Source: Bryobacterales bacterium (GTDB lineage: Bacteria; Acidobacteriota; Terriglobia; Bryobacterales; Bryobacteraceae). From it: a stretch of DNA of 64,000 nucleotides. Positions 3,113 to 29,462 of this stretch are shown in pieces. The notes beneath the pieces were generated by a model. It saw nothing but the letters and a program-made list of their open reading frames with translations. It was not told the DNA's origin and ran no database searches. Every line of letters starts with the position of its first letter. Positions within the stretch are counted from its first letter, which is position 1. Location: positions 1 to 64,000 of the forward strand of contig CANFEY010000012.1 of the NCBI GenBank assembly GCA_947446025.1. The letters are read 5' to 3'. A program made the translations under genes and the position numbers.

Positions 3113-3997
3113 ATGAAACTGCAAGGAATTTTTCCCGCCATCGTCACTCCTTTTGACTCCAAGGGTGAACTGTACAAAATCAAGGTCCAGCATAATGTCG
3201 AACGCTGGAACCGAACCGTGCTCTCCGGCTACGTCGTCTGCGGCTCCACCGGCGAAAGCGCGCTGCTCAGCGGCGAAGAAAAGCTGCTGCTGTTTGAATG
3301 GGTCGCGCAGCATGCGGCTCCGGAGAAGACGCTCATCGCGGGGACCAGCGCCGACAGTGTGCGGGAGTGCGTGCGCATGACCAATCGGGCGGCGGAGCTG
3401 GGCTACAAAGCCGCGCTGATTCTGCCGGCGAACTACTACAAGTCGATTTTCAGCAAGCCGGAGTCGCAGAAGTTGTTCTTCCGGGCGGTTGCCGATCAGG
3501 CCAAGATTCCGGTGCTGCTGTATCACTTCCCGCAGGTCAGCGGGATCGACATGTTGCCGGAGACGGTGGCGGAGCTGGCGGCGCATCCGAACATCATCGG
3601 GATGAAGGATAGCTCGGGGAACCTCGAAGGGACCAAGACGTTTCTCGCCGCGGTGCCGAAGGATTTTCAGGTGATGACGGGGTCGTCGAATGTGCTGGCC
3701 GCGTCGCTGGCGGCGGGCTGCTCGGGCGCGATTTTGGCCTTGGCGAATGCGGTGCCGTACGCGTGCATCAGCATCTGGGAAGCGCACCGGTCGCGGGAAA
3801 CTGAGGCAGCGGAAGACTGGCAGAGCCGCATCGCGGCGGGGTCGGCGATTATCTCGGGAAGCTACGGTATCCCCGGACTGAAGCACGCGATGGACCTGAT
3901 GGGGTACTTCGGCGGCGATCCGCGGCTGCCGTTTGTGCCGGTGGGTCCGGCGGCGCAGGCGGAGATCGCACGCGCCTTTGAGGGACTTAAAGGCTGA
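3113..3997 (+). CDS. dihydrodipicolinate synthase family protein (DapA-like aldolase)
   Basis: 294 aa; GIFPAIVTPFDSKG, STGESALLSGEEK, IIGMKDSSGNLE. Confidence 0.9.
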   Translation: MKLQGIFPAIVTPFDSKGELYKIKVQHNVERWNRTVLSGYVVCGSTGESALLSGEEKLLLFEWVAQHAAPEKTLIAGTSADSVRECVRMTNRAAELGYKAALILPANYYKSIFSKPESQKLFFRAVADQAKIPVLLYHFPQVSGIDMLPETVAELAAHPNIIGMKDSSGNLEGTKTFLAAVPKDFQVMTGSSNVLAASLAAGCSGAILALANAVPYACISIWEAHRSRETEAAEDWQSRIAAGSAIISGSYGIPGLKHAMDLMGYFGGDPRLPFVPVGPAAQAEIARAFEGLKG

Positions 3998-4370
3998 GCT
4001 GCGATAGCGGTACAATCTGGCGCGGGCGGCCGATGCGGATTTTGCCGTTGCGGAAATCGTGGGCCCTGGCGTGGATGATTTCTGAGACGCTGTCGGCCAG
4101 GAAGCCGATCAGCTTGCCGGAGTTCAGCACCACGATACACGGCGTCCGCCCCGATATGCCGTGGCGCAGCTTGAGGCGCAGCCGCAGATCGATCACAGGG
4201 AACGGCTCCCCGCGCAAGCGGGATTCGCCCGCCAGCCAGGCCGGATCGGGGTGGTCCGCGCTGAGCAGGTCGTGCGCGGGGATGATCGCCTTGACCGGAC
4301 CCGCTTCAATCGCAAATTCCTGCCGCCCCACCCGGAACGTCAAGTATTCGCCGCTGCGGAATCCTTCCAC
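3987..4370 (-). CDS. CheW-like domain protein
   Basis: YLTFRVGRQEFAIEAGPVKAIIP ... RGEPFPVIDLRLRL ... VVLNSGKLIGFLADSVSEII. Confidence 0.75.
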   Translation of the reverse strand: MEGFRSGEYLTFRVGRQEFAIEAGPVKAIIPAHDLLSADHPDPAWLAGESRLRGEPFPVIDLRLRLKLRHGISGRTPCIVVLNSGKLIGFLADSVSEIIHARAHDFRNGKIRIGRPRQIVPLSQLSL

Positions 4371-4391
4371 ATGGCCCGTATCGGCCCGGCG

Positions 4392-5549
4392 TCAGGAAGT
4401 GTGAGCGTCGCGAGCCACGTAGCCGCACGCGATGATGCTGAGCAAGACGCCCAGTGGTTCGCTGTCATTGAGGTTGTGCTCGGCCACTCCCGCCACCGTC
4501 ACCGCAAGGAGACACGCAATCGCCGCCGGCATCATCCAGTTGGCCCGTCGAGCCATCCAGAAATCGAACAGCGCGCGCCCCAGGAACCCCAGCATCGCCA
4601 GCAGCGCCGGCACACCGCGCTCCGCCGCGTATTGGTAGTAGACGTTGTGCAAGTGCCCGATGGACCATTCCGTCGGCACCGGACTCGGCACGCTGGGCGG
4701 CGCGTATTCGACGAACTTGCGGCTCACCATCTCGGGCCCCACTCCCACCAACGGATGCGCCTTGATCATCTCCCACCCCGTGGCCCGCAACGCCGCCCGG
4801 TGCGCCGTGGAATCCACAATATTGAGTTGAGGCTGGAACACAGACATCACGCGCTCCCGTAGCAACGGACTAGCCGCCAGAACCACCGCCCCCGCTACAG
4901 GCACCAGCGCCACCAGCCACCGCTTGCGGGACCACAACATCCACATACCACCCAGCGCCGTCCCCGCCCACATGGTGCGCTGGAAGGAGACGAGCAGTCC
5001 CGCTCCCATCACGCCGACCGCGCCCAGCAGGACCCCGCTCCGCCTATCGAACAGTATCAGCGCGCCAGCCACCATCAGAGCCATCATGGTGATCCCGCTG
5101 AAGGTCATCCAGTGGGACATGAATCCGGTGGCCCGCGAGCCGTTGCTGTATACGTGATAGAACAGCACAGCGTTGGTGCGGTAGATTCCGGCGAACTGCA
5201 CCAGCGCCCAGGCGGCGGAAAGCGTGGCCCCCGCGAGGATGCCGTACATCACCCAGCGGACTTCGCGCAGCGTCCGGATCGCGCTGAACACCGCGAAGAG
5301 CATCAGGTACTCGTAGAATTTCTTCACCTGCGCGAGGCCCACGCGCGGCTCCGGCGAAAACGCCAAGGACACCAGCGTCCACCCCATGAACAGCAGCAGC
5401 GGCAGCGTCACGGGGGGCCAGCGCAGCTTCTTGGGGTCCAGCAGCAGCGCCAGCACCGCCGCGCCCAGCAGAATCTGGCTCGCTGCGATGGACACGGTTG
5501 AGGTGGCTGCCGCCGCACCCGCTAGATAGGCTGGGGCCTTGTCGCGCAT
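4392..5549 (-). CDS. O-antigen ligase family membrane protein
   Basis: Multi-TM; GWEMIKAHPLVGVGPEMV...IGHLHNVYYQYAAERGVPALLAMLGFL (Wzy_C-like). Start placed at ATG MRDKAPAYL. Confidence 0.8.
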   Translation of the reverse strand: MRDKAPAYLAGAAAATSTVSIAASQILLGAAVLALLLDPKKLRWPPVTLPLLLFMGWTLVSLAFSPEPRVGLAQVKKFYEYLMLFAVFSAIRTLREVRWVMYGILAGATLSAAWALVQFAGIYRTNAVLFYHVYSNGSRATGFMSHWMTFSGITMMALMVAGALILFDRRSGVLLGAVGVMGAGLLVSFQRTMWAGTALGGMWMLWSRKRWLVALVPVAGAVVLAASPLLRERVMSVFQPQLNIVDSTAHRAALRATGWEMIKAHPLVGVGPEMVSRKFVEYAPPSVPSPVPTEWSIGHLHNVYYQYAAERGVPALLAMLGFLGRALFDFWMARRANWMMPAAIACLLAVTVAGVAEHNLNDSEPLGVLLSIIACGYVARDAHTS

Positions 5550-5551
5550 GG

Positions 5552-5887
5552 CTAGTAACGCGGGACCGAGGGGTCCACCATCGCGCTCCAGGCGTCGATC
5601 CCGCCGGCCATGCTGGAGCAATTCTCGACGCCCTGTTCGCGCAGCCAGTGGACCACGTTCAGACTGCGCACGCCGTGATGGCAAAACACCACCAGCGGCC
5701 CGGTGGCAGCTTTGGCCTCCAGTTCCTGCAACTGCGACGGCACGGAGCGCATGGGCAGCAACGCCGCGCCTTCAATCTTGCAGATGGCGAACTCATTCGG
5801 TTCGCGCACGTCGATGAGGTGCAGAACCTCTCCAGCGTCTATGAGTTGCTGAACGTCGCGGGCGGAAATTTCCAAGGGACCGGGCAT
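5552..5887 (-). CDS. rhodanese-like domain protein
   Basis: LIDVREPNEFAICKIEGAALLPM...VVFCHHGVRS. Confidence 0.88.
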   Translation of the reverse strand: MPGPLEISARDVQQLIDAGEVLHLIDVREPNEFAICKIEGAALLPMRSVPSQLQELEAKAATGPLVVFCHHGVRSLNVVHWLREQGVENCSSMAGGIDAWSAMVDPSVPRY

Positions 5888-6000
5888 GATTCACCATCAT
5901 AGCGGGTACCCCGGCGTCTAAGGGTACCGGGGTGGAAATTCCCATGTGTCCAGGGATCTCTGCGGATTCCTAATGGCGGGAGCGTAGGTTATTGTGGATC

Positions 6001-6189
6001 ATGGCCAACCTACTGCGGCGAATCTGGCGCGAACTGCAGGCCCAGGACCTGATCGAATACGCGCTTATGGCCGGCTTCGTAGCCGTATCCGCGGGAGCTC
6101 TGATGCCTGGGGTAGCGGGCAGCATCAGCACCATCTTCTCGAAGGTCGCCTCGGTGCTGTTCGTGGCGCAAGACCCGTTCACAGGATAA
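6001..6189 (+). CDS. Flp family type IVb pilin
   Basis: MANLLRRIWRELQAQDLIEYALMAGFVAVSAGALMPGVAGSISTIF; ATG at 6001 preferred over upstream TTG. Confidence 0.75.
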   Translation: MANLLRRIWRELQAQDLIEYALMAGFVAVSAGALMPGVAGSISTIFSKVASVLFVAQDPFTG

Positions 6190-6193
6190 ACGA

Positions 6194-7531
6194 TCATCCC
6201 CCAGGGAGAATCTTGGAGATATCGTTGTAGATCACAAAAACGATCACGACCATCAGGAACGCGAAGCCCACCTTCACGATGCCTTCCTTGACGCGCATGC
6301 TGAGGTCGCGCTGCATCAGCATCTCGATCAGCAGCATGAGGATGCCGCCGCCGTCCAGCAGCGGAATGGGTAGCAGGTTCACCACCGCCAGATTCAAGCT
6401 GACGGCTGCCATCAAGCCCAGGAACGTCTTGGCACCCTCTTTCGCCGCGCGCCCCGACTGCACGGCGATGCCGATGGGGCCGTCGATCGAGCGCGCCGAC
6501 ATGCGCTGCTCCACCACGCTTTGCAGGAAGCGGTAGATCATCATCGCGTTCTTCTGGTTTTCATCCCACGACGCCATGGCAGCCTCGCGCAAAGGGAGCT
6601 GCACTACTTCCACACGCCCTTGCTGCAACTGCGCGCCGATGCGCCAATGTTCCGCTCCCGCTTCGGTGGTCTTGAGTGGCTGAATCCCAACCTCATGTTC
6701 CTGCCCGTCGCGAAGATAAACCAGCTGCACCGGCTCACCCTTGGACCCCTCCACCGTCTCGATCAACTTCTCCGAGGACAGGATCAGGTTACCGTTGATG
6801 CTCACGATGCGGTCGCCCTTCTGGAGCCCCGCCTTCTCTGCCGGAGCGGCGTCCGAGAACCCCGCCACCAGCACCTCCACCTGCGGCGACCAGCCTGAAG
6901 AACCTGGGCTCCGCGCATCCGGCGATTCCGGCACAAGTTTGAACTGCAGCCGCGATCCACCACGCACTACGGTGACGTCCATGGACCGCCCCACGCCCAC
7001 CATCTCCTTGCGTTGGATGGCTTCCCAATTCGGGCCGCCCTGCCCGTCGAACTCAACAACCTGATCGCCCTCTTGGATGCCCGCCTTTGCCGCCGGACCC
7101 TTGGCCATCACCGTTGCAATCACCGGATTCGGCGGGTCGACGCGCTTCGGGTACTCCCACATGAACAGGCCTGTCAGGATCAGCAGGGCCAGCACAAAGT
7201 TAACAGCTGGGCCGGCAAAGATGATGCATAGGCGCTGCCAACGGGGCTTGGCGGGAAATGCGCGTGGGTCCATTTGCGCGGATTCGGTATCCGCGATTTC
7301 GCCCGGCTGCTCACCGGCCATCTTGACGTACCCGCCCAGCAGGAAAGCGCAGAACTTGAAGTCGGTTTCGCCGCGCTTGAAGCCGAACAGCCGCGGCCCG
7401 AAGCCGAAGCTGAACGCTTCAATGTGGACGTCGAAGAAGCGCGCCACCATGTAGTGACCCAGCTCATGCAGCAGGATCATCACGCCAATCAGAACCAGAA
7501 ACCAGAAAACTGTCTGCAGAGTATCGAACAT
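6194..7531 (-). CDS. rseP: RIP metalloprotease RseP (site-2 protease)
   Basis: HELGHYMVARFF zinc motif, PDZ domains, NLLPIPLLDGG. Confidence 0.93.
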   Translation of the reverse strand: MFDTLQTVFWFLVLIGVMILLHELGHYMVARFFDVHIEAFSFGFGPRLFGFKRGETDFKFCAFLLGGYVKMAGEQPGEIADTESAQMDPRAFPAKPRWQRLCIIFAGPAVNFVLALLILTGLFMWEYPKRVDPPNPVIATVMAKGPAAKAGIQEGDQVVEFDGQGGPNWEAIQRKEMVGVGRSMDVTVVRGGSRLQFKLVPESPDARSPGSSGWSPQVEVLVAGFSDAAPAEKAGLQKGDRIVSINGNLILSSEKLIETVEGSKGEPVQLVYLRDGQEHEVGIQPLKTTEAGAEHWRIGAQLQQGRVEVVQLPLREAAMASWDENQKNAMMIYRFLQSVVEQRMSARSIDGPIGIAVQSGRAAKEGAKTFLGLMAAVSLNLAVVNLLPIPLLDGGGILMLLIEMLMQRDLSMRVKEGIVKVGFAFLMVVIVFVIYNDISKILPGG

Positions 7532-7546
7532 TTCGTCTCTCTTATT

Positions 7547-8737
7547 TTACGTACGTGCCGCCAAAACGGCTCTAGCCGCGATCACTTCCGCCGCCACCCG
7601 GCGCGCCTCGCGGTCCACTTCCAGGACTTCATTGATGGACGCGGGTTCGCGGGCGGGCATCCGCTCCAGCGTTTCCGCCACCGTTTCCCAGATGCCGGGA
7701 AAAGGAAGCTTGCCCGCCAAAAACTCCGCCACAGCAACCTCGTCGGCGGCATTCAGGATCGCCGTGGCCGCCCCGCCCGCTTCCTGCGCCTGGTAGGCCA
7801 GACTCAGCAGCGGAAATTTCTCAAAGTCCGGAGCGTAGAAATTCCAACACGAAGTCTCCCGCCAATTGATGCGCGGCACTGGAGCCGCCGCCCGCTCGGG
7901 ATACGTCATCGCGTACTGGATCGGCATCCGCATGTCGGTAGCACAGACTTGCGCGATCACGCTGCCGTCCACGTACTCCACCATGGCATGGACTTTCGAT
8001 TCCGGATGCACCACCACATCCACTTCTTTCGGCTGGAAGTCAAACAGCCAGCAGGCCTCGATCACTTCAAATCCCTTGTTCATCAGCGTCGCCGAATCAA
8101 TGGTGATGCGCTGGCCCATTTTCCAGGTGGGATGGTTCAAGGCCTGTGCTACAGTGACGGACGCAAGCTGCTCGCGCGGGGTTTCGCGGAACGGCCCGCC
8201 GGACGCCGTGAGAATCAGCTTCGTCACTCCGTCGCGCCCGCCGCGCAGGCACTGATGCGCGCCGTTGTGCTCACTATCGACGGGGATCATCTCCGCCCCC
8301 GAGGCCTCGCGCGCCGCCATCACCAGCTTGCCCGCCGAAACCAGGACTTCCTTGTTGGCCAGCCCCACCCGCTTTTTCGCGCGGATTGCCTCGTAGGTGG
8401 CCTTCAGTCCTTCCACGCCGACTATCGCCGACATAACGAAGCCGACTTCCGGCGCAACGGCCGCGTCCACCTTCGCCTTGCCCCCGTACACGATTTCCGT
8501 GCCCGTGAACGTGCCAATCGCGCGCAATGCCTTCGCCGCAGCCTCGTCGGCAACCACGGCCACCTTCGGCCGGAATTCCCCAATCTGCTGCGCCAGCAGG
8601 TTTACATTCCGTCCAGCAACCAGTGCGTAAATGCCGAACCGCTCCGGCCACTGCCGGACGACATTTAAAGTATTGACACCAATGGAGCCAGTAGAGCCGA
8701 GAACAGTTAGGAGAGTCACCCGATTCAAGAATACCAC
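7547..8737 (-). CDS. dxr: 1-deoxy-D-xylulose-5-phosphate reductoisomerase
   Basis: GSTGSIGVNTLNVV, NKEVLVSAG, IPVDSEHN, GQRITIDSATLMNKGFEVIEA. True start may be a few codons downstream (GTG). Confidence 0.95.
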   Translation of the reverse strand: MVFLNRVTLLTVLGSTGSIGVNTLNVVRQWPERFGIYALVAGRNVNLLAQQIGEFRPKVAVVADEAAAKALRAIGTFTGTEIVYGGKAKVDAAVAPEVGFVMSAIVGVEGLKATYEAIRAKKRVGLANKEVLVSAGKLVMAAREASGAEMIPVDSEHNGAHQCLRGGRDGVTKLILTASGGPFRETPREQLASVTVAQALNHPTWKMGQRITIDSATLMNKGFEVIEACWLFDFQPKEVDVVVHPESKVHAMVEYVDGSVIAQVCATDMRMPIQYAMTYPERAAAPVPRINWRETSCWNFYAPDFEKFPLLSLAYQAQEAGGAATAILNAADEVAVAEFLAGKLPFPGIWETVAETLERMPAREPASINEVLEVDREARRVAAEVIAARAVLAART

Positions 8738-8781
8738 TCGTTTCTTTGGATGGGTTGCAGAAGGTAAGGATTTTAGGGGGC

Positions 8782-8851
8782 GCCGGGGAGGTTTTGCTTC
8801 AGGGGTCTTATCTGAGGTTAGTCTCGCTTTGGTGGGAGTCGCCTCCCCGGC
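8782..8851. ncRNA. candidate structured RNA / long inverted repeat upstream of dxr
   Basis: 10-bp perfect closing stem GCCGGGGAGG (8782-8791) / CCTCCCCGGC (8842-8851), with nested CTTCAG...CTGAGG hairpin, in a non-coding gap. Confidence 0.35.
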
Positions 8852-8968
8852 TTGATTCCAATACTAATATAAGTCGCCCGAAGATGCAAGACTTTTCGTA
8901 TGAATTTTTGGATACAGCCCTAATCGATTGTTTCTATAGGGGTCATATGCCCATCAGATGAGTCCGTA

Positions 8969-9862
8969 CTACGCCTTTTTGATCACAGTCCCGGTCCAAT
9001 CTTCCAAAACACGGATTGCGGAGCAGAAGTCGTCATCCCCGCGCCCGCTTGCCACCGTCGCCCGTAACATCTGTTCTGTGACCGAGCTAGCCGGAACCGG
9101 CACGTTCAGATCCCGAGCCATTTGCGTGGCGAACCCCACGTCTTTGTGCATCCACTTCGCCGAAAAGTGCGTTGTGAAGTCGCGGTTGAGGATAAACGGT
9201 GCCTTAAAGCTGGCGAGGCCGCTCTTCGCCGCACTGTTTTCCAGAATGTCGATCATCAGCTCCGGTGGGATGCCGGCCTTGGCGGCCAGGACCAGGCCCT
9301 CGGAGAACGCCTGGAAAATCCCGGCTCCCACCATGTTCTGGGTGACTTTGGCGCGCAGCCCCATGCCCGGACCGCCGCAATAGAAGAACAGCTTCCCCAT
9401 GATCTCCATATAGGGCTTCGCGCGCTCGTAGGCCGCCTTGTCGCCCCCGATCATAAAGGTCAGCGTGGCTTTATCCGCCCCGCCCGTCGAACCCGTCACC
9501 GGCGAATCCAGAAAATCGATCCCCTGGGCGGCGAGCACCAGCCCGATCTCCACGCTGGCGTCCGGCGCGATGGAACTGCAGTCGGCAATCACCGTGCCCT
9601 TGCGAGCCGTCTCAATCAGCCCGTCCTTGCCCAGGCAGACATCGTGGACCATCGCCGTGTTGCCGACGCAGAGGAAGATGAAATCGGCCCGCTGGCCCAC
9701 CTCGCGCGGAGACAGGCACACGGTCCCCTTGCCTTCACTGGCCAGCTTCTCGGCCTTGCCCGCGGTGTGCGACCACAAAGCTACCTCATGCCCCGCCCGC
9801 AGCAAATGTCCGGCCATGCGGTAGCCCATGATGCCGAGTCCAATGAATCCGAGTTGTGACAA
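8969..9862 (-). CDS. NAD(P)-dependent oxidoreductase, 3-hydroxyisobutyrate dehydrogenase family
   Basis: LGFIGLGIMGYRMAGHLLRAGHEV, FLDSPVTGSTGGA. TTG start at 9862 with AGGGAGG upstream. Confidence 0.88.
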   Translation of the reverse strand: MSQLGFIGLGIMGYRMAGHLLRAGHEVALWSHTAGKAEKLASEGKGTVCLSPREVGQRADFIFLCVGNTAMVHDVCLGKDGLIETARKGTVIADCSSIAPDASVEIGLVLAAQGIDFLDSPVTGSTGGADKATLTFMIGGDKAAYERAKPYMEIMGKLFFYCGGPGMGLRAKVTQNMVGAGIFQAFSEGLVLAAKAGIPPELMIDILENSAAKSGLASFKAPFILNRDFTTHFSAKWMHKDVGFATQMARDLNVPVPASSVTEQMLRATVASGRGDDDFCSAIRVLEDWTGTVIKKA

Positions 9863-9892
9863 TGTAGCCTCCCTGAAAGTGTACAAAAGATC

Positions 9893-9905
9893 GGTGTCAG
9901 ACACC
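9893..9905. repeat. GGTGTCAGACACC palindromic element
   Basis: 13-bp near-perfect palindrome in the divergent intergenic region. Confidence 0.6.
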
Positions 9906-9946
9906 ACAACTCCCGATCTCCAACCGCTGCGTTAGAATCATAGATC

Positions 9947-12499
9947 ATGCCTCTAGCCTCGGGAGACCACTTAGGCAACTTCGAAATCCTGGCCAAAATC
10001 GGTGCCGGAGGCATGGGAGAAGTCTACAAAGCCCGCGACACGCGCCTGGACCGGGTCGTCGCCCTCAAGACTTCCAAGCAGCAATTCACGGAGCGCTTCG
10101 ACCGCGAGGCACGGGCCGTGGCGCAGCTCAACCACCCCAACATTTGCACGCTCCACGACGTCGGACCTAATTTTCTGGTCATGGAGTTCGTCGAAGGCGC
10201 TCCCTTAAAAGGGCCGCTGCCGATAGACGAAGTCCTCCGCATCGCCCACCAAATCACTGCCGCCCTGGAAGCCGCGCACGAGAAACACATCACCCATCGC
10301 GACTTGAAACCCGCCAACGTGATGCTCAAGCCCGACGGGTCCATCAAGGTCCTCGACTTCGGCCTAGCCAAACTCGCCCCACCCCCGCGCACCGACCTCT
10401 CTCCCGAGTACTCCCCCACGCTCACCATGTCGCTGACCGACGCCGGCATGGTCGTCGGCACCGCCGCCTACATGGCCCCCGAGCAAGCCAAGGGCTCTGA
10501 CGTGGACAAGCGAGCCGACATCTGGTCCTTCGGCGTCGTCCTCTACGAACTCCTCAGCGGCAAGCGCCCCTTCCAAGGCAACGACATTGCCGAGATCCTC
10601 GCCAGCGTCATCAAAGAGCAGCCCGACTACGAAAAGGTCCCCCACGAGTTCCGCCGCCTCATCAAAAAGTGCCTGGAGAAAGACCCCGCCAAACGCCTTC
10701 GCGACATCGGCGACGCCTGGGAGTTGCTGGAGACACCACCCGTGCCAGCACCCGCGCCTCCCGCCGCGAAGAGCAACAAGCGCTGGCCCGCCGCCGCAGC
10801 CGTGTTCGCGATCTTGGCAATTGCCGCCGGCTTCCTCTACCTCCGCCAGCCGCCTCCAACCGACCCGCCATCGCGACTGCTGGCGATCGAAATGCCGGAT
10901 GCTATCTCGGGGCTCGCGCTTTCCCCGGACGGAACCATGCTGGCCGCTGGTTCGGCAGCCGGCATCAACGTCCGCCGCTTCGATAGCGACGAAGTTCGCT
11001 TGCTGCCCGATACGGATGGCGCTACCTATTTTTTCACTTGGTCGCCAGACAGCCGTTCGATCATCTTCCGGGCAGCCGGCCCGCGGCTGATGCGCACGGA
11101 TGTGAACAACGGTCCGCCGGTGTTGGTAACGAACATTTCTCCAGACTACTACGGGGCAGCTTGGCGCGACGACGGGGTTCTGCTGATCGGGCCCGCTAAG
11201 GGCATCCTTCGGACATCGGTGAACGGCGACACACCCACGCCAGTCACGATTGCAGGCAAGCAATACTCTTCGCACCAGAACCCTGTGCTCCTTCCCGATG
11301 GACACCACTTTTTCTACAATGCCGTCATAGGCCTCGGAAACGGTGACCTTCTAGTCGGCGACCTGAATACTCCACCCGCTCAGCAATCCATGCAGCCCTT
11401 GATCTCGGGGAGCGTAGGCGGCCCGGAGTCGCGGGTCTTCTTTATCCCCGCCGACCCCGCGCGACCGGAGCAAGGGCACCTGATCTTTCGCCGGGGAAGC
11501 ACGCTACTGGCTCAGCCATTCGACGCGGATGCGCGGAAACTCAGTGGGGAACCCACTGCTCTTTCCAGCCAAACCGTCCGGCAACAAACCGTGATCGGTG
11601 ACACTGCGGTGTTCTCCACCCTGGGCGGCCAGAAGAGTCAGCTCACGTGGTTCGACCGTACAGGAAAGCCGACGTCCGCCACGGTCGGCGAGCCAGCCTT
11701 TCAATTCGCCACGTCGCTCTCACCCTACGGCAAACACATCGCCGTGGAGCGGACACCCGATCTGCGGCCAGGGGGCGCCAATATTTGGGTGCTGGACGTA
11801 GCCTCGAATACATCCACAAAAATCTCCGGCCAAGGGCAGATGCCCATTTGGTCTCCCGACGGAACCGAACTGATCTTTGCAGGCTACAGCTCGAATGGCC
11901 GTAACTTGGTCCGAGTACCCGCCAACGGTGCCGTCGAACCAAAGCTTGTCTACCAGCCTGCCGGTAATGGGATAGTTACGCCGCAAAGCTGGATCGGCAG
12001 CACCCTCCTGCTGGAGGAAGGCGGCGACCTCTATACGCTCGACCTCAATGGCCGCGACGCGAAGCCGCAACTCTACCTCGCGCTCGCCGGCAACCAATAC
12101 ACCGCGCAGTTTTCTCCCGATGGACGCTGGGTTGCCTACTCCTCCAACGACTCCGGCACCACCGAAGTGTACGTCAGCTCGTACCCCGATCCGAGGATTA
12201 GCCGAGTTACGGTTTCGAGCGGGGACGGCCTGCGCCCGCGCTGGTCCCGCGACGGCAGGCTGCTCTATCTCACACCCGACAACACCTTGGTGTCTGTAGC
12301 CGTAAACACCGGGAGCACCTTCACCCTGGGCACTCGGACCACACTCGGCAACGTACACGCACGCTCCGGCTCGAACGCACGCGGCAACATCTGGGACATC
12401 ACCCCGGATGGGCGAATCCTGGTCAACTCCGGCGCGGACGGCACGGATACGCCAGCGCTTTCGATTCTGCTCAACTGGCGGTCGTTGTTGAGAAAGTGA
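9947..12499 (+). CDS. serine/threonine protein kinase with C-terminal TolB/PD40 beta-propeller
   Basis: IGAGGMGEVYKARDTRLDRVVALK, HRDLKPANVML, DFGLAK, then TM and repeated SPDG/PDGRW motifs. Confidence 0.95.
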   Translation: MPLASGDHLGNFEILAKIGAGGMGEVYKARDTRLDRVVALKTSKQQFTERFDREARAVAQLNHPNICTLHDVGPNFLVMEFVEGAPLKGPLPIDEVLRIAHQITAALEAAHEKHITHRDLKPANVMLKPDGSIKVLDFGLAKLAPPPRTDLSPEYSPTLTMSLTDAGMVVGTAAYMAPEQAKGSDVDKRADIWSFGVVLYELLSGKRPFQGNDIAEILASVIKEQPDYEKVPHEFRRLIKKCLEKDPAKRLRDIGDAWELLETPPVPAPAPPAAKSNKRWPAAAAVFAILAIAAGFLYLRQPPPTDPPSRLLAIEMPDAISGLALSPDGTMLAAGSAAGINVRRFDSDEVRLLPDTDGATYFFTWSPDSRSIIFRAAGPRLMRTDVNNGPPVLVTNISPDYYGAAWRDDGVLLIGPAKGILRTSVNGDTPTPVTIAGKQYSSHQNPVLLPDGHHFFYNAVIGLGNGDLLVGDLNTPPAQQSMQPLISGSVGGPESRVFFIPADPARPEQGHLIFRRGSTLLAQPFDADARKLSGEPTALSSQTVRQQTVIGDTAVFSTLGGQKSQLTWFDRTGKPTSATVGEPAFQFATSLSPYGKHIAVERTPDLRPGGANIWVLDVASNTSTKISGQGQMPIWSPDGTELIFAGYSSNGRNLVRVPANGAVEPKLVYQPAGNGIVTPQSWIGSTLLLEEGGDLYTLDLNGRDAKPQLYLALAGNQYTAQFSPDGRWVAYSSNDSGTTEVYVSSYPDPRISRVTVSSGDGLRPRWSRDGRLLYLTPDNTLVSVAVNTGSTFTLGTRTTLGNVHARSGSNARGNIWDITPDGRILVNSGADGTDTPALSILLNWRSLLRK

Positions 12500-12511
12500 G
12501 ATCCTAACCCC

Positions 12512-12727
12512 ATGGAGCTCATCTTCGAAATCCGCGACGCCGAAGAAGGCGGCTTCTACGCCCGCGCCCTCGGCCACGCCATTTTCACCGATGCCGAGAC
12601 GTGGGACGAACTCCGCGCCAACATCCTCGAAGCCGTCTCCCTGCACTTCGAAGACAGCCCCGAGCAGCCCCGCTTGGTCCAGCTCCACTACGTCAAAGAC
12701 GAACTCATCCCGATCGAAGCCGCATGA
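12512..12727 (+). CDS. HicB-like antitoxin
   Basis: 71 aa; EIRDAEEGGFYARALGHAIFTDAETWDELRANILEAVSLHF; overlaps HicA by ATGA. Confidence 0.78.
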   Translation: MELIFEIRDAEEGGFYARALGHAIFTDAETWDELRANILEAVSLHFEDSPEQPRLVQLHYVKDELIPIEAA

Positions 12728-18377: not shown

Positions 18378-18726
18378 TTTTCGAGTTGAACTCGCGCCCG
18401 CCGCGGCAGATGACTTAGATCAAATCGCAGGTTACATTCGCGAGCGCGGCGGCCAGGAGAGTTCCGAGCAATGGTTCAACGGCATCATGACGGAGATCCG
18501 TACACTGCGGTCCTCGCCGGGCCGTTGCTTGGTCGCATCCCTCTCGACCGACGTAGGCGCCGAAGTTCGAGTGCTCCTGTTCGGAAGGAGGCACCGCCAA
18601 TACAAGGTGTAGTTTATTGTCGACGGAGAAATCCGTACCGTGTCCATCGTGCACATACGACACTGGGCACGCAGGGCAGTATCGGCTAGCGAACTCGCCG
18701 AGAGACTGAAGGGGATCCATGACTGA
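18373..18726 (+). pseudogene. decayed RelE/ParE-type toxin with in-frame TAG
   Basis: Frame from 18373 reads (I)DFRVELAPAADDLDQIAGYIRERGGQESSEQWFNGIMTEIRTLRSSPGRCLVASLSTDVGAEVRVLLFGRRHRQYKV*FIVDGEIRTVSIVHIRHWARRAVSASELAERLKGIHD*; TAG at 18610-18612; no ATG/GTG/TTG start in frame. Confidence 0.8.
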
Positions 18727-19351
18727 GGCGGACTGGTTTGTCGACTTCGAACAGATGCGGCATCAAGTCGAACAAGTTATCCAGATCTTCCATATGGAAC
18801 GCACTCTCAATGAGATAGCGCGAAGCAGCCCGGAGACATGGCACGCCATTAATAGGTGTGGTGCATTCTGGGGCACTCATCGGAACTGCTTAGACACCAC
18901 TCTCTTTATCGTAATGGGGCGCCTTTTCGACAAGTCTGGAGGGGCCACCTCACTTCGCAGCTTTCTTAAGGCCACGGCGGAACACCCTGGTTTCTTTACC
19001 AAGTCCGCTCTGCGAACTCGAAAGATCGGGCAAGGCGTTTTACACAAGTGGTTGGACGGGTGCGTGGAGGGTGCCTGGGTGTACGCTCCCCTCCGCAATA
19101 GAGTGTACGCGCACATCCAGGAGAAGGACCGGAATCGGATCGACGAGCTTTATTCGCAGACCCGATACGATGAAGTAGAGGGGATGTTGCGTTTTTTGAA
19201 AGGCGTCATTGACGACCTGTGGGAGCTCTACGTCAACGGTCACGAATTTGGCACGCTCGGATCAAGCTACGAAAGTTTTGTCAACCGAGTGCAAACCGAA
19301 GCGCGCCTCGTGATGGAGCAGATAACCCGTGCCGAGGCGACTGCGTCCTAA
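18719..19351 (+). CDS. HEPN/AbiU2-like domain protein
   Basis: CGAFWGTHRNCLDTTLFIVMGRLFDKSGGATSLRSFL... LRNRVYAHIQEKDRN; RNxxxxH HEPN motif. Confidence 0.6.
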   Translation: MTEADWFVDFEQMRHQVEQVIQIFHMERTLNEIARSSPETWHAINRCGAFWGTHRNCLDTTLFIVMGRLFDKSGGATSLRSFLKATAEHPGFFTKSALRTRKIGQGVLHKWLDGCVEGAWVYAPLRNRVYAHIQEKDRNRIDELYSQTRYDEVEGMLRFLKGVIDDLWELYVNGHEFGTLGSSYESFVNRVQTEARLVMEQITRAEATAS

Positions 19352-19665
19352 ACCGCAGTTTCCGAGAGCAGCATCCAGATCATCACGCACAACCCGCTGG
19401 CCGCGAGGAATGCGATGAACTTGGCGAACGCGGGGCCCATGAACTCGAAGCGGAGCAGCAGCACGAAGGCTAGGCCTCCGTGCAGCGCCGCGGGGTTTAC
19501 GGGGCGGTCGAACATGCTGGTGAACGGCACGGCGAAGATGTAGAACAGCAGCGGCACGTTGGAATCGTAGCGCTTGCCGAAGAGCTTGAAGATGCCGATG
19601 ATGGCGAGCGAACTCACCAGCACGGCGACCATGTTCGTGGGAGTGGCGCGGAAAAACATATCCAC
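19348..19665 (-). CDS. small integral membrane protein, unknown function
   Basis: 105 aa with four hydrophobic segments. Confidence 0.55.
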   Translation of the reverse strand: MDMFFRATPTNMVAVLVSSLAIIGIFKLFGKRYDSNVPLLFYIFAVPFTSMFDRPVNPAALHGGLAFVLLLRFEFMGPAFAKFIAFLAASGLCVMIWMLLSETAV

Positions 19666-19703: not shown

Positions 19704-21692
19704 TTAAAACGCCCAGGTAACCGAGGTGTACCCCGTATGCGCCCGGAAGCCTTGCGCCGAGGAGAACTGCTCGCCGTAGCCGTAATTCTGGTAGCCGGCA
19801 TTCCACCGGAGCTTGTCGTTAATCCGTACCGAAAGTTTCCCCTGCGGCGAGGTGAACCGCAGCGGGAACGTCTGCACCGATTGGAACGCGGCCAACGACG
19901 TGTACCCGGCGTTGCCCAACACCGTTGCCCGCCCGTCGCCGGTATCCTGAATGTGGCTCAACCCCAGTGACACATCCACCCGGCCGCGCACCGTGAAATG
20001 GGCCGAGAGGTTCGCCGTGTGGAGGTTGCTCACGTAGTAGGACCGGTCATTCGTCACCGACACCGTCGCAGTCCCCACGCGCGAGAAGTAGCTCAGCGAG
20101 CCCAGCGTATCCAAGTGCAGCTTGGCGTACGAGGCGTCGATGAAGAAGGTCCGCGAAATGGTCCACGTGCCGTCCGCCCCATACTGCCGGTTGCGTGACG
20201 CGAAGCTGTACAGCGACCCCGAGTTCACGTTGTAATCCGTTCGCACATAGCCGGCAAACCGGAAGTCCCCGCGCCGGTACTCCGCCCGCCCGCGGAACGC
20301 CTGGAAATTCTTCCCGCTCACCGGATAAAACGGCTGATCCGCGCGCCCGATCTCCCCATCGAAATTCATCGTCAGCGACTTCGTGGGCCGCAACCGCACG
20401 CCCAGGATGCCGGTGTTCAGCCCGTTTTCCTGCTCCGACATGGGCTGCACCCCCACCGCGTTGAAGCCCTCGATCGACCGCACCCGCCGCGTCGAATACT
20501 GATACCCCAGCCGCACGCCGAGCCAGGTCAAAGGCCGGTAATCCGCGTCCGTCGAATTCGCAATCGTCCGAATCCCCAAAAACTCAAACGGCACAAACGG
20601 CCGGATGGGCGATCCGTTGGTTAACTGCGTGAACACCGAGCTCCCCGACATCCGAATATGCGACAGCGCCGTCTGATTCGTAATCGTCAGCTTCGTGGAA
20701 GGAAACACGCTGAAGTTGAAGCTCCCCGTGGCCGCCGGACGCTGCGCATTCCCCGCCGTGAACACTTGCTGCGTCACGTTGTTGCCGAACCGGTCGGTCC
20801 CGAACCCTGTGCCATCCTGAATGAACGCCCGCTGGCCCTTCACATAAGTGAACCGCCCATTCACTGCCCACCACCGCGATTCCTGCATCAGCACCACGCG
20901 CCAATAGGGACTGGTCCCATGATACGGCTCGGTGCGCTGGAACGAAGTCAGCGTGCTGTTGTCATTGACGTTGTAGCCCGCCGACGGCGCAGGCAGCCGG
21001 ATCGAGTTGTCTTCCTTGAAGTCCACCCACCCGTGCATCACGTTCAACCGCCACCCCGCGTACCCGGCCTCAAACCCCGCCCGATACTCCCGCTGCTGGC
21101 GCCGCACGTTCGCGAACAGGGCAAACTGATCAGCCCGCCCATCAAACAACTGCGCCGACGTGATCGCCGGACCGGTCTGCTTGTTCTGCGAATACCCCAG
21201 GAAAAACTTCAGCGAGCTTTGCGGGAACAGCGTCAAGTCGTGGTCCTGATAATTGCGCACCGTGTCCGCGAAGTGCTGGCCATGGTCCGACCGCAGCCCT
21301 GGATTGTAGTACGCATTCGAGCGCCAGCTCAAATCGTAGCGATACAGCCGGTTCTTCTCGACGCGCAACGACGCATTCTGGTACGGATCATTCCCCAGCC
21401 CCTGTGTGTTCAGCTGGATCTGATCGAACGCGCTCCCGTGCCCTTCCACCGACTGCACCGACAGCGAACTGCTCAGCAGCCGCAACCCGTTCCCGTAATT
21501 CACCGTCGCGCGATACGTACCCTGGTCGCCGCCCACGCTGCGGAAGCGAGCCCCCAACTCAAACGACTGCCGCACGTTGTAGCCGGAGTGGTTTTCGCCG
21601 CGCGTAATCCCGACCGGTTCCCCCGTGGGAGCCACCGTCGGCTGCGCCGATGCGGCGGCGGCCAGCAACGCAACTATGGCAAGCCGTCTCAT
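19704..21692 (-). CDS. outer-membrane beta-barrel protein, MtrB/PioB-like
   Basis: Signal peptide MRRLAIVALLAAAASAQ; alternating beta-barrel pattern ending in aromatic TSVTWAF; ATGA overlap with decaheme cytochrome gene. Confidence 0.78.
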   Translation of the reverse strand: MRRLAIVALLAAAASAQPTVAPTGEPVGITRGENHSGYNVRQSFELGARFRSVGGDQGTYRATVNYGNGLRLLSSSLSVQSVEGHGSAFDQIQLNTQGLGNDPYQNASLRVEKNRLYRYDLSWRSNAYYNPGLRSDHGQHFADTVRNYQDHDLTLFPQSSLKFFLGYSQNKQTGPAITSAQLFDGRADQFALFANVRRQQREYRAGFEAGYAGWRLNVMHGWVDFKEDNSIRLPAPSAGYNVNDNSTLTSFQRTEPYHGTSPYWRVVLMQESRWWAVNGRFTYVKGQRAFIQDGTGFGTDRFGNNVTQQVFTAGNAQRPAATGSFNFSVFPSTKLTITNQTALSHIRMSGSSVFTQLTNGSPIRPFVPFEFLGIRTIANSTDADYRPLTWLGVRLGYQYSTRRVRSIEGFNAVGVQPMSEQENGLNTGILGVRLRPTKSLTMNFDGEIGRADQPFYPVSGKNFQAFRGRAEYRRGDFRFAGYVRTDYNVNSGSLYSFASRNRQYGADGTWTISRTFFIDASYAKLHLDTLGSLSYFSRVGTATVSVTNDRSYYVSNLHTANLSAHFTVRGRVDVSLGLSHIQDTGDGRATVLGNAGYTSLAAFQSVQTFPLRFTSPQGKLSVRINDKLRWNAGYQNYGYGEQFSSAQGFRAHTGYTSVTWAF

Positions 21693-22636
21693 CTGAAGAA
21701 GAACGAATCCGCATTCGACCCGTGAATGCGCACGTGGCACGAGGTGCAGTTCTGGAACCGGGGATCCGCCATATTGTGGAACGTGGAATTCCTGGGAATC
21801 CCGTTCGCCTGCCGCCCGAAGTTCCCCGAACCCGTGTGGCACTCCAGGCAAACCGTGTACACCACCGGGCGCTTCAGCAGCCGGGGATTGGTCGACCCAT
21901 GCGCGCTGTGGCAGGTCTCGCAGCCTTCCACCCGGACCGCCGCGTGCTCGAATACAAACGGTCCGCGCTTGTCGATGTGGCACTTCATGCACGGCTGCTC
22001 ATTGCCCACGCCCTGCTCCACCATTCGCGGCCGGGCCCCCATATTCCACGTCGCGGCGAACGACCCGTGTGGATTGTGGCAATCGGTACACTGCACGGAG
22101 CCTTCGTTTACCCGGTGCTTAAACGGCATCGAAAACTGAGCCCGCACCGTCGTATGGCAGCCGTAGCAGAGGTCGCGCTGCTGCTCGGTTTTGAGCAGAT
22201 TCTTGGGCGCGGGCGACCGGTGGATGGAGTGGCAATTCGTACACACCACGTCATCCAGCGTATGTTCACTGCGCCGGATGTTGGCCCGCGAAATCGACTG
22301 CGCATGGCACCCGAGGCACGTGTCGGCCACCTGTGTGGGCGACAGCTTTGAAAACGCCCGAGGGATGGTATCCTTGCCCCCGCCTGCTCCCACGTGTCCC
22401 GACGCCGGACCGTGGCAGCTTTCGCAGCCCGTCTTTTCAGGAGCCTGATTACCCGCCGCGATGCTCTTATAGTGGGGATTGCGGAAAAACGTGGAGTAGA
22501 GGTCGATGTGGCAGGTCCGGCACGCGTTGCTGCCCACGTAGTCCTGCGCAGCCGCCGGCAGCGCGCACAAACCAATCAGCAGGGCTAACGGAGCCCACGC
22601 ATTGCAACCTGACATCTTCCAAATATAGCGCACCAA
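21689..22636 (-). CDS. decaheme c-type cytochrome, DmsE/MtrA family
   Basis: Ten CXXCH motifs: CRTCH, CESCH, CLGCH, CTNCH, CYGCH, CTDCH, CMKCH, CETCH, CLECH, CTSCH; signal peptide ALLIGLCALPAAAQ. Start may be the internal ATG (MSGCNAWAP). Confidence 0.92.
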   Translation of the reverse strand: MVRYIWKMSGCNAWAPLALLIGLCALPAAAQDYVGSNACRTCHIDLYSTFFRNPHYKSIAAGNQAPEKTGCESCHGPASGHVGAGGGKDTIPRAFSKLSPTQVADTCLGCHAQSISRANIRRSEHTLDDVVCTNCHSIHRSPAPKNLLKTEQQRDLCYGCHTTVRAQFSMPFKHRVNEGSVQCTDCHNPHGSFAATWNMGARPRMVEQGVGNEQPCMKCHIDKRGPFVFEHAAVRVEGCETCHSAHGSTNPRLLKRPVVYTVCLECHTGSGNFGRQANGIPRNSTFHNMADPRFQNCTSCHVRIHGSNADSFFFR

Positions 22637-22643
22637 AATAGTT

Positions 22644-22694
22644 TGCCCCGGAGCGAGTCTGACCTTGTTACAGGTAAGACCCGGCTCCGGGGCA
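22644..22694. repeat. 51-bp REP-like inverted repeat
   Basis: TGCCCCGGAGC (22644-22654) and GCTCCGGGGCA (22684-22694), perfect 11-bp arms, inner imperfect GAGTCTGACC / GGTAAGACCC pairing. Confidence 0.7.
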
Positions 22695-22993
22695 TTGTGG
22701 AACAGAACTACTTTGTCCAGCTGATGCCTACCATTGGGACGATGTTGTGCAGCATGCTGATGCCCGCCACACAGTCCGCGCTGGACGTCGAAGATCCCTT
22801 CGACCCTGAAGAAAGCCTCATGGCCGGCGCCCGCCTGCTAAGGGAGTTGCTCACCCGCTACAACGGAAGCCTCCCACGCGCTTTAAGCGCCTACAACGCC
22901 GGTCCCAAGAAAGTAGACCGCGCAGGCGGCATCCCCGCCATCGCCGAAACCCGCCAATACGTAGCCCAAATCCTCAGCCGCCTGGGGGACTGA
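22695..22993 (+). pseudogene. 5'-truncated lytic transglycosylase (SLT domain) remnant
   Basis: LMPATQSALDVEDPFDPEESLMAGARLLRELLTRYNGSLPRALSAYNAGPKKVDRAGGIPAIAETRQYVAQIL = C-terminal SLT; N-terminal part including the expected catalytic Glu region is absent. Confidence 0.7.
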
Positions 22994-24286: not shown

Positions 24287-25996
24287 TTATGGCAACGCGA
24301 AGACGTACATCGCGTTCGCCCCCGCGGGGACCTTTAGCTCCGGCACTTCGGCCGCAAGCTCCGGCAGCTTCAGATTGTCGCCCGTCATCACCGCGATGTA
24401 CTGCTTACCGCGCACCGCATACGTGATCGTGCTGACCGAGATGTTGCCGCCCAGGATCGCCTCCCACAGCATCTTGCCGTTGTTCGCATCGAACGCCCGG
24501 AACCTGCGCGACATGTCGCCGTGGAAAATCAGCCCGCCCGCAGTAGCCAGCACCGCCCCCATGCTCGGCGCGCGGCCCACGTCAAAGCGCAAAATCTCGC
24601 CCGTGGAAAGGTTGATCTTCGCGATCCCCGTCAGCTCGTTCGGATTGCCGCCCGGCCGCTGCACCACCTTCCAACTTTCGCGCCCGCCCGGCTGCGCCGA
24701 AATCAACTCGCGGCAGTTGTCGATGTACGACGTGTACAGCGAATTCGTCACCGGCGAATACGCCGCTGGCCAGTAGCTCTTGGCGTTCCAGTAACAGATG
24801 GTCTTCTTCTGCCCCGGACCCGTCACCACGTTGTCCCAATTGATCGTCGCCTTGCCCGTCTTCACGTCGATGTCGGAGATGGCGAAATTCGGCGTGTCGA
24901 ACGGAAACGGAGTCGCCCACAAAAACTCGCCGGTGTGCCGGTCGATCACCGAAACTCCCCCGCCCTCCGCCACCGTCACGCTCACGTCCCGCTGCTCACC
25001 ACGCTTCACATTCGCGCTAATCCACTTCACCGACTTCGGATCGGGATTGAATGCAACCCGAGCCAGTGTGCGCTCATTGGTGTGGTCCAGATCCGAGTCG
25101 TCGCCGGGAAGATGCTGGTAATACCACTTCAGCTTGCCCGTCGCCGGATCAATCGCCACCGTCGAGTTGCTGTAGAGATCCGCCGGCGCAGTCTTCGATA
25201 CGCCGTCCGCCGTGCCGTGGCGGTCCATGCGCCGGTCCGGCATCGGATTCGCGACGCCCCAGATCAGCGTCTTGTTCGCCACATCATAGGCGCCCGGCAA
25301 TCCCCAAGTGGAGGCCAAGCGCTTTTCAAGCGGCGCGCCCGCCCAAGACTCGGCACCCGGCTCACCATCCGCCGGCGTGGTGTAGAAGCGCCACAATTCC
25401 TTTCCCGTCAGCGCATCGTGCGCCGAGATGAAACAGCTGGCCCGGTTGCCCGCGCACGCGCCGCCCGAAATCACCTTGCCCTCCGCAATGATCGCGCCCG
25501 AAGTATTGCCGCGCGATTCCACCTTCGCCTCCCAACGCTGCTCACCCGTGCGCGCATCCAGGCCCACCACGAAGCTATCCGGCGCGGTGTACGCGATGAT
25601 ATCGCCGAAAATCGCCAGCGTCTTCGCCCTGCCCTGAGCGGCCTGGTTCGCCGGGACTTTGCGCTTGTACTCCCACAACACGTCGCCAGTGGTTGCATCC
25701 AGCGCCTGCACAATGGCCCCCGGAGCGATGACGTACATCACCCCGTCGTGGACCAGCGGGATCGTCTCCGTCTGCCCCGCCCCAATGCCGCGCGACCACG
25801 CCATCTTCAGTTGCCCCACGTTCGACGTGGTGATCTGATTCAACGGGCTGTAGCGCTGATTATCGTAGGTCCGGCTGAACATCAGCCAGTCATTCGGGCT
25901 CGGATTCTCCAGCATCTGCTGCGTCACCGGCACGAAATTCTTGACCTGGGCAATCGCCAAGGCACCGAAGGCAAAAAGTAGGATTGTGCGTTTCAT
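24287..25996 (-). CDS. PQQ-dependent (methanol/ethanol-type) dehydrogenase
   Basis: Quinoprotein propeller: NDWLMFSRTYDNQRYSPLNQI, WEYKRK, GGACAGNRASCFISAHDALTGKELWRF, DDSDLDHTNE. Confidence 0.87.
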   Translation of the reverse strand: MKRTILLFAFGALAIAQVKNFVPVTQQMLENPSPNDWLMFSRTYDNQRYSPLNQITTSNVGQLKMAWSRGIGAGQTETIPLVHDGVMYVIAPGAIVQALDATTGDVLWEYKRKVPANQAAQGRAKTLAIFGDIIAYTAPDSFVVGLDARTGEQRWEAKVESRGNTSGAIIAEGKVISGGACAGNRASCFISAHDALTGKELWRFYTTPADGEPGAESWAGAPLEKRLASTWGLPGAYDVANKTLIWGVANPMPDRRMDRHGTADGVSKTAPADLYSNSTVAIDPATGKLKWYYQHLPGDDSDLDHTNERTLARVAFNPDPKSVKWISANVKRGEQRDVSVTVAEGGGVSVIDRHTGEFLWATPFPFDTPNFAISDIDVKTGKATINWDNVVTGPGQKKTICYWNAKSYWPAAYSPVTNSLYTSYIDNCRELISAQPGGRESWKVVQRPGGNPNELTGIAKINLSTGEILRFDVGRAPSMGAVLATAGGLIFHGDMSRRFRAFDANNGKMLWEAILGGNISVSTITYAVRGKQYIAVMTGDNLKLPELAAEVPELKVPAGANAMYVFALP

Positions 25997-27788: not shown

Positions 27789-29462
27789 ATGCGTACTCTT
27801 GCATTTTTGGCCTGCACGGCGGCGTTCGCGCAGACGGGCGCACCCGCGCTCAACGATTGGAGCAGTTACGGCGGCACGCAGTACAGCTGGCGTTACAGCG
27901 CCTTGAACCAGATCAACACCCAGAACATAAAGCAGCTCGCCCCCGCGTGGTTGTTTCAAACCGGCGACTATGCGGAGAACCTGCATTCGACGCCCATCGT
28001 GCAGAACGGCGTGATGTACCTGATCACCGCGCGCTTGCAGGTGTTCGCGCTCGATGCCACCAACGGCAAAGTGATCTGGCACTACCGTTACCCCTCGCCC
28101 GCCGCCGGGCTGCCCGGCACACACGCCGACTTCATTCAGAATCGCGGCGTTGCCATCGGCGACGGCAAAGTGTTCTTCGGTACCAAGGACAACTTCATGG
28201 TCGCGCTGGACCAAAGAACGGGCAAAGAAGTTTGGAAGGTTTCCATCGACGATCCCAAGCAATGCGGCTGCAACATCACAGGCGCGCCGCTAGTGGTGAA
28301 GGACAAGGTGATCATCGGCGGCAACGGCGGTGACCAGGCGCATCGCGGCTACCTCACAGCGCTGTCCACCAAGACTGGCCGGGTCGCGTGGCGCTGGTAT
28401 GTGGTGCCGGGTCCGGGCGAACCGGGCAACGATACGTGGAAGGGCGATAGCTGGCGCTACGGCGGCGGATCGCCGTGGCTCACTGGCTCCTACGATCCGG
28501 AGTTGAACTTGCTCTATTGGGGCACCGGCAACGCAGCCGCGGATTTCTACGACGGCGACCGCGTCGTAGCCGGCGCGAACAAAGGCGCACCGACGAATCT
28601 TTACACCGCAAGTGTGGTCGCGCTCGATGCCGATACCGGCAAGCTTCGCTGGCACTATCAGGAAGTCCCCGACGATGTGTGGGACTACGACGCCGCCTAC
28701 GAAGTGCTGTTGATGGACCGCGAAATCCGCGGGCAGATGCGCAAGATTCTGGTCCACATGAACAAGAGCGGGCTGACGTTTGTGCTGGACCGCGTGACCG
28801 GCCAATATCTCAGCGCGTTCATGGTGCCGGAGGTTTACAACTGGATCACCGGCTTCACCGAAGACGGCAAGCTGGTGGGCCGCAATGAACCCGTGCTGGG
28901 GCAGAAGGGCAATTTCTGTCCGTCGACGGCGGGCGCGAAGAGTTGGAACAGCATGGCATATTCGCCGCGCACCGGCTTCATTTACACACCCACGAATGAG
29001 ACCTGCAACGACATCACTTCAAACGCAACACCGGCGAGTGAAGGTAAGTTCTACATGAACGGCGAATTTCCGATGACGCTGCCGCCGGGGCGCACCACCT
29101 ATAGCCACGTGGATGCGTTCGATCCGGTGACGGGTAAGCGCATGTGGAGCATGCCGTACCGCCTGATGCTGCTCTCTTCGATGCTCACCACAGCGGGCGA
29201 CCTGGTGTTCACCGGCGATCCTGAGGGAAATTTCTTCGCGCTGGACGCGCGCTCTGGCAACAAGCTGTGGAATTTCCAGACGGGCGCGGGCCATCGTGGC
29301 GCGGCGATTTCCTATTCGGTGAACGGCAAGCAGTACATCGCGACGACCACGGGCTGGCATCAGACAGTGGTGGGCGGCGCGGTGGCTAGAATTTTCCCAG
29401 AGGAAGAGTTCCGGTTGGGTTCGACGTTGGTGGTGTTCGCATTGCCGGAGGGTACGCGATGA
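27789..29462 (+). CDS. PQQ-dependent (alcohol-type) dehydrogenase
   Basis: NDWSSYGGTQYSWRYSALNQINTQNIKQL, VALDQRTGKEVWK, VPDDVWDYDAAYE. Confidence 0.88.
   Translation: MRTLAFLACTAAFAQTGAPALNDWSSYGGTQYSWRYSALNQINTQNIKQLAPAWLFQTGDYAENLHSTPIVQNGVMYLITARLQVFALDATNGKVIWHYRYPSPAAGLPGTHADFIQNRGVAIGDGKVFFGTKDNFMVALDQRTGKEVWKVSIDDPKQCGCNITGAPLVVKDKVIIGGNGGDQAHRGYLTALSTKTGRVAWRWYVVPGPGEPGNDTWKGDSWRYGGGSPWLTGSYDPELNLLYWGTGNAAADFYDGDRVVAGANKGAPTNLYTASVVALDADTGKLRWHYQEVPDDVWDYDAAYEVLLMDREIRGQMRKILVHMNKSGLTFVLDRVTGQYLSAFMVPEVYNWITGFTEDGKLVGRNEPVLGQKGNFCPSTAGAKSWNSMAYSPRTGFIYTPTNETCNDITSNATPASEGKFYMNGEFPMTLPPGRTTYSHVDAFDPVTGKRMWSMPYRLMLLSSMLTTAGDLVFTGDPEGNFFALDARSGNKLWNFQTGAGHRGAAISYSVNGKQYIATTTGWHQTVVGGAVARIFPEEEFRLGSTLVVFALPEGTR

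Follow-up and report, generated by a model that had tools for sequence, protein, structure and literature searches.

A decahaem cytochrome and an MtrB-type barrel form a conserved two-gene module, a probable porin-cytochrome conduit, in a family of Bryobacterales

Introduction

The closest described systems are the MtrCAB complex of Shewanella (PDB 6R2Q), in which the decahaem cytochrome MtrA and the 26-strand barrel MtrB are joined by MtrC, and the two-gene PioAB and MtoAB systems, which pair a decahaem cytochrome with a barrel and have no MtrC. The characterised relatives of the latter kind, PioAB and MtoAB, work inward (PMC12016527, PMC10654088). Here we describe a gene pair of this layout found in a 64,000-nucleotide stretch of DNA (the window) at the beginning of contig CANFEY010000012.1 of a Bryobacterales bacterium. 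Acidobacteria rank among the most abundant bacteria of soil, and the cultured members of the group are mostly described as aerobic heterotrophs.

Homologues of mtrA and mtrB have been reported in Bryobacter aggregatus MPL3, Ca. Solibacter and KBS 96 (Eichorst et al, 2018, PMC5900883), acidobacterial decahaem cytochromes have been proposed as signs of iron reduction (Lipson et al, 2013, PMC3669403), and PioA/MtoA homologues in Acidobacteriia were reported by a network study of 2023 (PMC10654088). The genes of Eichorst et al (2018) and Lipson et al (2013) are, judging from the relevant passages of these papers, very probably the same as those of the module. These passages deal with the presence of homologues (a decahaem cytochrome in Lipson et al) and mention no barrel fold, separate lineage or third gene. 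As far as these papers show, the presence of the genes was already known, and what is added here is the identification of the barrel at the level of its fold, an MtrC-free lineage and a third gene.

Results

The module lies on the minus strand of the window. Its first gene encodes a decahaem c-type cytochrome of the MtrA/DmsE family, a protein of 308 residues with a signal peptide (22615..21689); the open reading frame extends over 22636..21689, and the ATG at 22615 is a likelier start than the alternative TTG at 22636 that the first-pass annotation had used. The second gene (21692..19704) encodes an outer-membrane barrel, of MtrB type by its fold, a cysteine-free protein of 662 residues with a signal-peptide-like N-terminus and a final Phe. 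The stop codon of the cytochrome gene and the start codon of the barrel gene overlap in an ATGA at 21689..21692, which appears as tcat at 21689-21692 on the plus strand. The first-pass annotation had read the locus as a ten-CXXCH cytochrome overlapping by ATGA with a large barrel gene ending in Phe, isolated from other multihaem genes, and this description is confirmed in all its parts by the count of ten motifs in the 308-residue protein, by the sequence of the overlap and of the barrel C-terminus, and by the neighbourhood, where no other multihaem gene adjoins the cytochrome and the barrel.

It had, however, overlooked a third minus-strand gene at 19348..19665, which follows the barrel gene after a gap of 38 nt and encodes a hydrophobic protein of 105 residues, predicted to be probably a multi-pass membrane protein, with no match in Pfam or NCBIfam. 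This gene would belong to one operon with the pair. A profile built from the 105-residue protein was run on the sequence downstream of barrels and found a same-strand homologue at 57 of the 123 loci with an orthologous barrel and at none of the 21 loci of a more distant barrel group described below; the two sets of loci behind the 123 draw on the same genomes and partly overlap, so that the fraction, about half, carries more weight than the count. Homologues were present at 42 of the 80 named loci and in the genomes of both isolates discussed below. At the module, the promoter scan did no better than chance, and the terminator scan departed from chance by about one standard deviation at most. 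On the opposite strand, directly upstream of the cytochrome gene, a short open reading frame (22643-22993) covers a lytic transglycosylase SLT domain in its C-terminal part alone and may be a gene remnant, and a protein convergent to the module (18719-19351) matches an AbiU2-type HEPN domain.

The assignment of the cytochrome is supported by several features. Its CXXCH motifs lie at residues 32, 64, 100, 125, 150, 176, 209, 232, 256 and 290 of 308, compared with a mean of 0.095 motifs and a maximum of 2 in 20,000 shuffles of its residues, and all ten are invariant across 58 homologues. The protein contains exactly ten further His residues, eight of which are kept in 58/58 homologues and the others in 57/58 and 54/58, and this is the number required by ten bis-histidine haems. 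Its TIGR03508 score of 273.5 bits exceeds the cut-off of 192.2, and its top PDB sequence match is 6r2q_A (E 1.1e-33), with ten out of ten haem motifs aligned; the sequence-database label of this chain reads cystathionine beta-synthase, while the chain is really A of the Mtr complex. Taken together, the TIGR03508 match, the motifs, the His residues and 6r2q_A identify a periplasmic decahaem cytochrome of the MtrA/DmsE family. A haem-free AlphaFold model of the cytochrome (mean pLDDT 65.5) is confident in its first half only, and although 6r2q_A is its sole significant PDB fold match, this search is weak evidence alone because AlphaFold models the cytochrome poorly without haems.

The barrel, for its part, was recognised by its fold. 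The barrel protein has no Pfam match of substance, no NCBIfam match and no match in a PDB sequence search, and PF11854 (MtrB_PioB) matches neither the barrel nor any other protein in the window's genome. An AlphaFold2 model based on an alignment of 58 natural homologues (pLDDT 87.2, pTM 0.79) contains 26 strands, as counted from the DSSP list of the model with three stretches of 3-4 residues left out, and has no plug domain. Among about 350,000 PDB chains, the top fold match of this model is 6r2q_B, which is MtrB (E 4.9e-13, TM-score 0.67/0.68), with 12% identity over the fold alignment, and the other 49 fold matches listed, TonB-dependent receptors and the like, have query TM-scores of 0.37-0.49. 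The MtrB-type pore of about 26 strands, on which the first-pass annotation had staked its reading beforehand, is therefore found in the model by strand number and by best match. The barrel is identified by fold and not by PF11854, the latter being a sequence model rather than a mechanistic feature. As judged from its sequence, the barrel escapes the standard family models, which is one of the novel points here and a gap in annotation.

The pair is widespread. The barrel query matches 86 of 101 relatives, and barrel matches at E <= 1e-10 occur in 207 of the 237 genomes of the family; by a hand count of genomes with a best E below 1e-60, about 172 of the 237 have an orthologue, and the remaining barrel-matching genomes have only members of the distant group, at around 22-30% identity. 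Wherever the contig extends far enough, the gene of the orthologous barrel is directly preceded by a decahaem gene, and the two adjacent genes are conserved as a pair. Ten motifs were found in the aligned part at 77 of the 80 named loci, two others being cut by a contig end and one contig stopping before the cytochrome gene, and the gap between cytochrome and barrel is at most 30 nt in 74 of the 79 cases in which it was measured. The named loci come from acidobacterial metagenome-assembled genomes (MAGs), mostly of Bryobacterales, and the isolate names indicate soil, peat, groundwater and lakes. The first-pass annotation had considered such a module notable in an organism that otherwise looks like an aerobic heterotroph; the module is instead a common conserved trait of the family, published earlier in the form of mtrA/mtrB homologues.

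The distant barrel group lies in clusters with an OmcA/MtrC cytochrome (TIGR03507), several of them also with a NapC/NirT-like cytochrome, and we infer that these loci are the Bryobacterales MtrCAB, Group 5 of Baker et al (2022, PMC8805035). They belong to the same bacterial order and have a related cytochrome and barrel, but the two-gene module has no MtrC cluster, its barrels are only about 22-30% identical to theirs, and its decahaem cytochromes form a separate clade. In the decahaem tree, one clade (support 99) unites the MtrC-linked acidobacterial sequences and another (99) nearly all those of the two-gene module, the exception being two class-level relatives of unsettled placement; the tree was made by a quick method with SH-aLRT support only and with an outgroup limited to 6R2Q MtrA (the aligned stretch) and one distant decahaem cytochrome from Photobacterium, the single one that plasmid records yielded. 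Each module can be present without the other: among the about 172 genomes that carry the two-gene module, at least 29 lack any TIGR03507 match at E <= 0.001 (hand count), and other genomes of the family carry the MtrC-linked kind only. Two class-level relatives (L042 and L043, family f10) depart from the Bryobacterales pattern in having pentahaem proteins after the pair, and their decahaem cytochromes do not group with the main two-gene clade. In a relative of the same order (L066, 7611-11105), an open frame of 1164 residues with 27 CXXCH motifs joins a membrane-anchored start to an MtrA-like decahaem cytochrome, and is possibly a fusion or a sequencing artefact.

The genome of the window (4.43 Mb, 99.9% complete) contains one such barrel and one such decahaem cytochrome over the cut-off. 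The first-pass annotation had proposed a search of the genome for CymA/NapC and MtrC-like genes; this yielded no family member, with no match to NapC/NirT/CymA (PF03264) in the genome and none to MtrC/OmcA (TIGR03507) in the genome or beside the pair. No haem protein and no molybdoenzyme recurs beside the pair, and no gene for a HiPIP of the PioC type was noted among its recurring neighbours. Two neighbouring PQQ dehydrogenases (24287-25996 and 27789-29462) were considered as partners and set aside, as they do not recur beside the module. Other multihaem proteins are encoded at least on contigs C2 and C3, the listing of CXXCH motifs being that of the first contigs, and searches of the genome with the paired-CXXCH and C554 families found nothing beyond these two. 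On C3, a gene run (L094, G000:C3:66000-82000, at 3121-12691) encodes a NuoE/NuoF-like protein, a 705-residue NuoG/HoxU-like Fe-S protein with cNMP-binding domains, a 263-residue probable membrane protein and a 400-residue membrane-anchored decahaem cytochrome, with a convergent gene for a 1252-residue nine-haem protein with LVIVD repeats; it is possibly a NADH-to-multihaem complex. As a general inner-membrane electron source for the module it was rejected, since its decahaem cytochrome occurs in 16 of 101 relatives, which is too patchy for a general donor, and does not track the module. On C2, a 393-residue eight-haem cytochrome (L095, 2811-3992) weakly resembles the GSU2203 and DmsE families, below their cut-offs, and no hit of the barrel search lies near it.

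Discussion

The strongest evidence for a conduit is that two adjacent genes lead, independently of each other, to two chains that are partners in one complex, 6r2q_A for the cytochrome and 6r2q_B for the barrel. We consider that the pair is probably, though short of certainty, a porin-cytochrome conduit of the MtrAB type. Like Shewanella MtrCAB, the module combines a decahaem cytochrome, whose ten motifs align with those of MtrA, and a barrel of 26 strands whose best PDB fold match is MtrB, but the genome of the window has neither MtrC nor CymA, and the barrel, at 12% identity to MtrB and free of cysteine, falls outside the MtrB models. With PioAB and MtoAB it shares the two-gene layout of decahaem cytochrome and barrel and the lack of MtrC, and it differs from them in having no CymA/ImoA or other haem gene nearby. 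The first-pass annotation had likened the locus to PioAB, MtoAB and MtrAB and taken it as suggestive of extracellular electron transfer: the anatomical part of this proposal holds, with 26 strands and MtrB as the match, while the electron transfer itself is putative.

It can be hypothesised that the cytochrome threads ten bis-histidine haems through the 26-strand barrel in the outer membrane, and that the barrel would insulate the cytochrome while the haem chain reaches the cell surface at one end. Electrons could then cross between periplasmic carriers and extracellular iron minerals, iron complexes or humic quinones, a transfer that would dispense with a surface cytochrome of the MtrC type and with a dedicated CymA on the inner side. 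Such a device would enable a respiring soil heterotroph to swap electrons with iron or humics under fluctuating oxygen, which is the most likely role of the module. The assembly of the complex, its exposure at the surface, its substrate, the direction of flow and the periplasmic donor are inferred. An outward flow, with electrons dumped at low oxygen, agrees with the wetland origin of some members and with the isolate that reduces Fe(III); we give it a little under an even chance, and lean slightly towards outward dumping or reversible use over uptake.

The conduit could also work inward in the manner of PioAB and MtoAB, oxidising external Fe(II), reduced minerals or humics and feeding the aerobic chain as a supplement to heterotrophy. 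We regard this as a serious but tentative possibility: the absence of MtrC is common to PioAB, MtoAB and the module (PMC12016527, PMC10654088), and the module is found in a genome that fits an aerobic isolate, but the genome of the window has no cytochrome of the CymA/ImoA type, no haem protein recurs beside the pair as it does in the mto cluster, and the direction of electron flow is not deducible from MtrAB genes or sequences (Baker et al, PMC8805035). A more far-reaching proposal, which appears speculative and rather unlikely as a whole, is that a distinct, MtrC-free and often three-gene lineage of conduits, unseen by standard MtrB models, belongs to the core traits of Bryobacterales and gives aerobic acidobacteria of the soil a means of trading electrons with iron or humics, the small membrane protein being a dedicated partner that replaces CymA or aids assembly.

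Two further explanations dispense with a general conduit. It is improbable that the barrel serves as an ordinary transporter or receptor beside a cytochrome that acts on its own as a periplasmic carrier, with no wire across the membrane, since the best fold match is MtrB, whose TM-score clearly exceeds that of every TonB-dependent receptor listed, a plug domain is missing from the model, and cytochrome and barrel are linked at every complete locus checked; what speaks for such a view is the lack of an MtrB_PioB sequence match and the fact that many large barrels match weakly by fold. Still more improbable is that the pair serves one dedicated extracellular reductase, as DmsEF does with DmsAB, and has no general role towards iron or humics. 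TIGR03508 is indeed named after DmsE, but the model takes in MtrA-like proteins broadly, and the lack of a recurrent molybdoenzyme argues in the same direction, as do the four molybdopterin matches in the genome, which over their matched stretches resemble formate dehydrogenase, NasA or NuoG types and all fall below the DmsA cut-offs.

Two genomes of isolates are relevant to the general conduit that we favour. One of them (G247), probably that of Paludibaculum fermentans P105, a strain that reduces Fe(III) (PMC8407742), has an MtrC-MtrA-barrel cluster at another site in addition to the two-gene module; with both modules present, its phenotype does not show which of them works. The other (G143) fits Bryobacter aggregatus MPL3, although this naming is weaker than that of P. 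fermentans; the strain is recorded as aerobic in the relevant part of Eichorst et al (2018, PMC5900883). In this genome the third gene accompanies the two-gene module, and it is not among the genomes with a TIGR03507 match, so that the organism would allow the function of the module to be studied with no MtrCAB alongside. The module can be seen as a variant of a known device that is common in its family, aerobic members included, and an outer-membrane conduit conserved across most of one family would tie Acidobacteria to the redox cycling of iron and humics in soil.

The gap in annotation left by PF11854 can be set beside a published case. Peatland acidobacterial MAGs were described, with the exception of SbA2, as having no known metal-reduction genes (Hausmann et al, 2018), yet the record of one of them, SbA4 (L142), carries the pair, with a barrel 45% and a cytochrome 66% identical to those of the window. 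Among the other public records, a MAG titled Bordetella parapertussis (L097, CALQCC020000007.1) contains an 80%-identical copy in an acidobacterial context, and is surely mislabelled.
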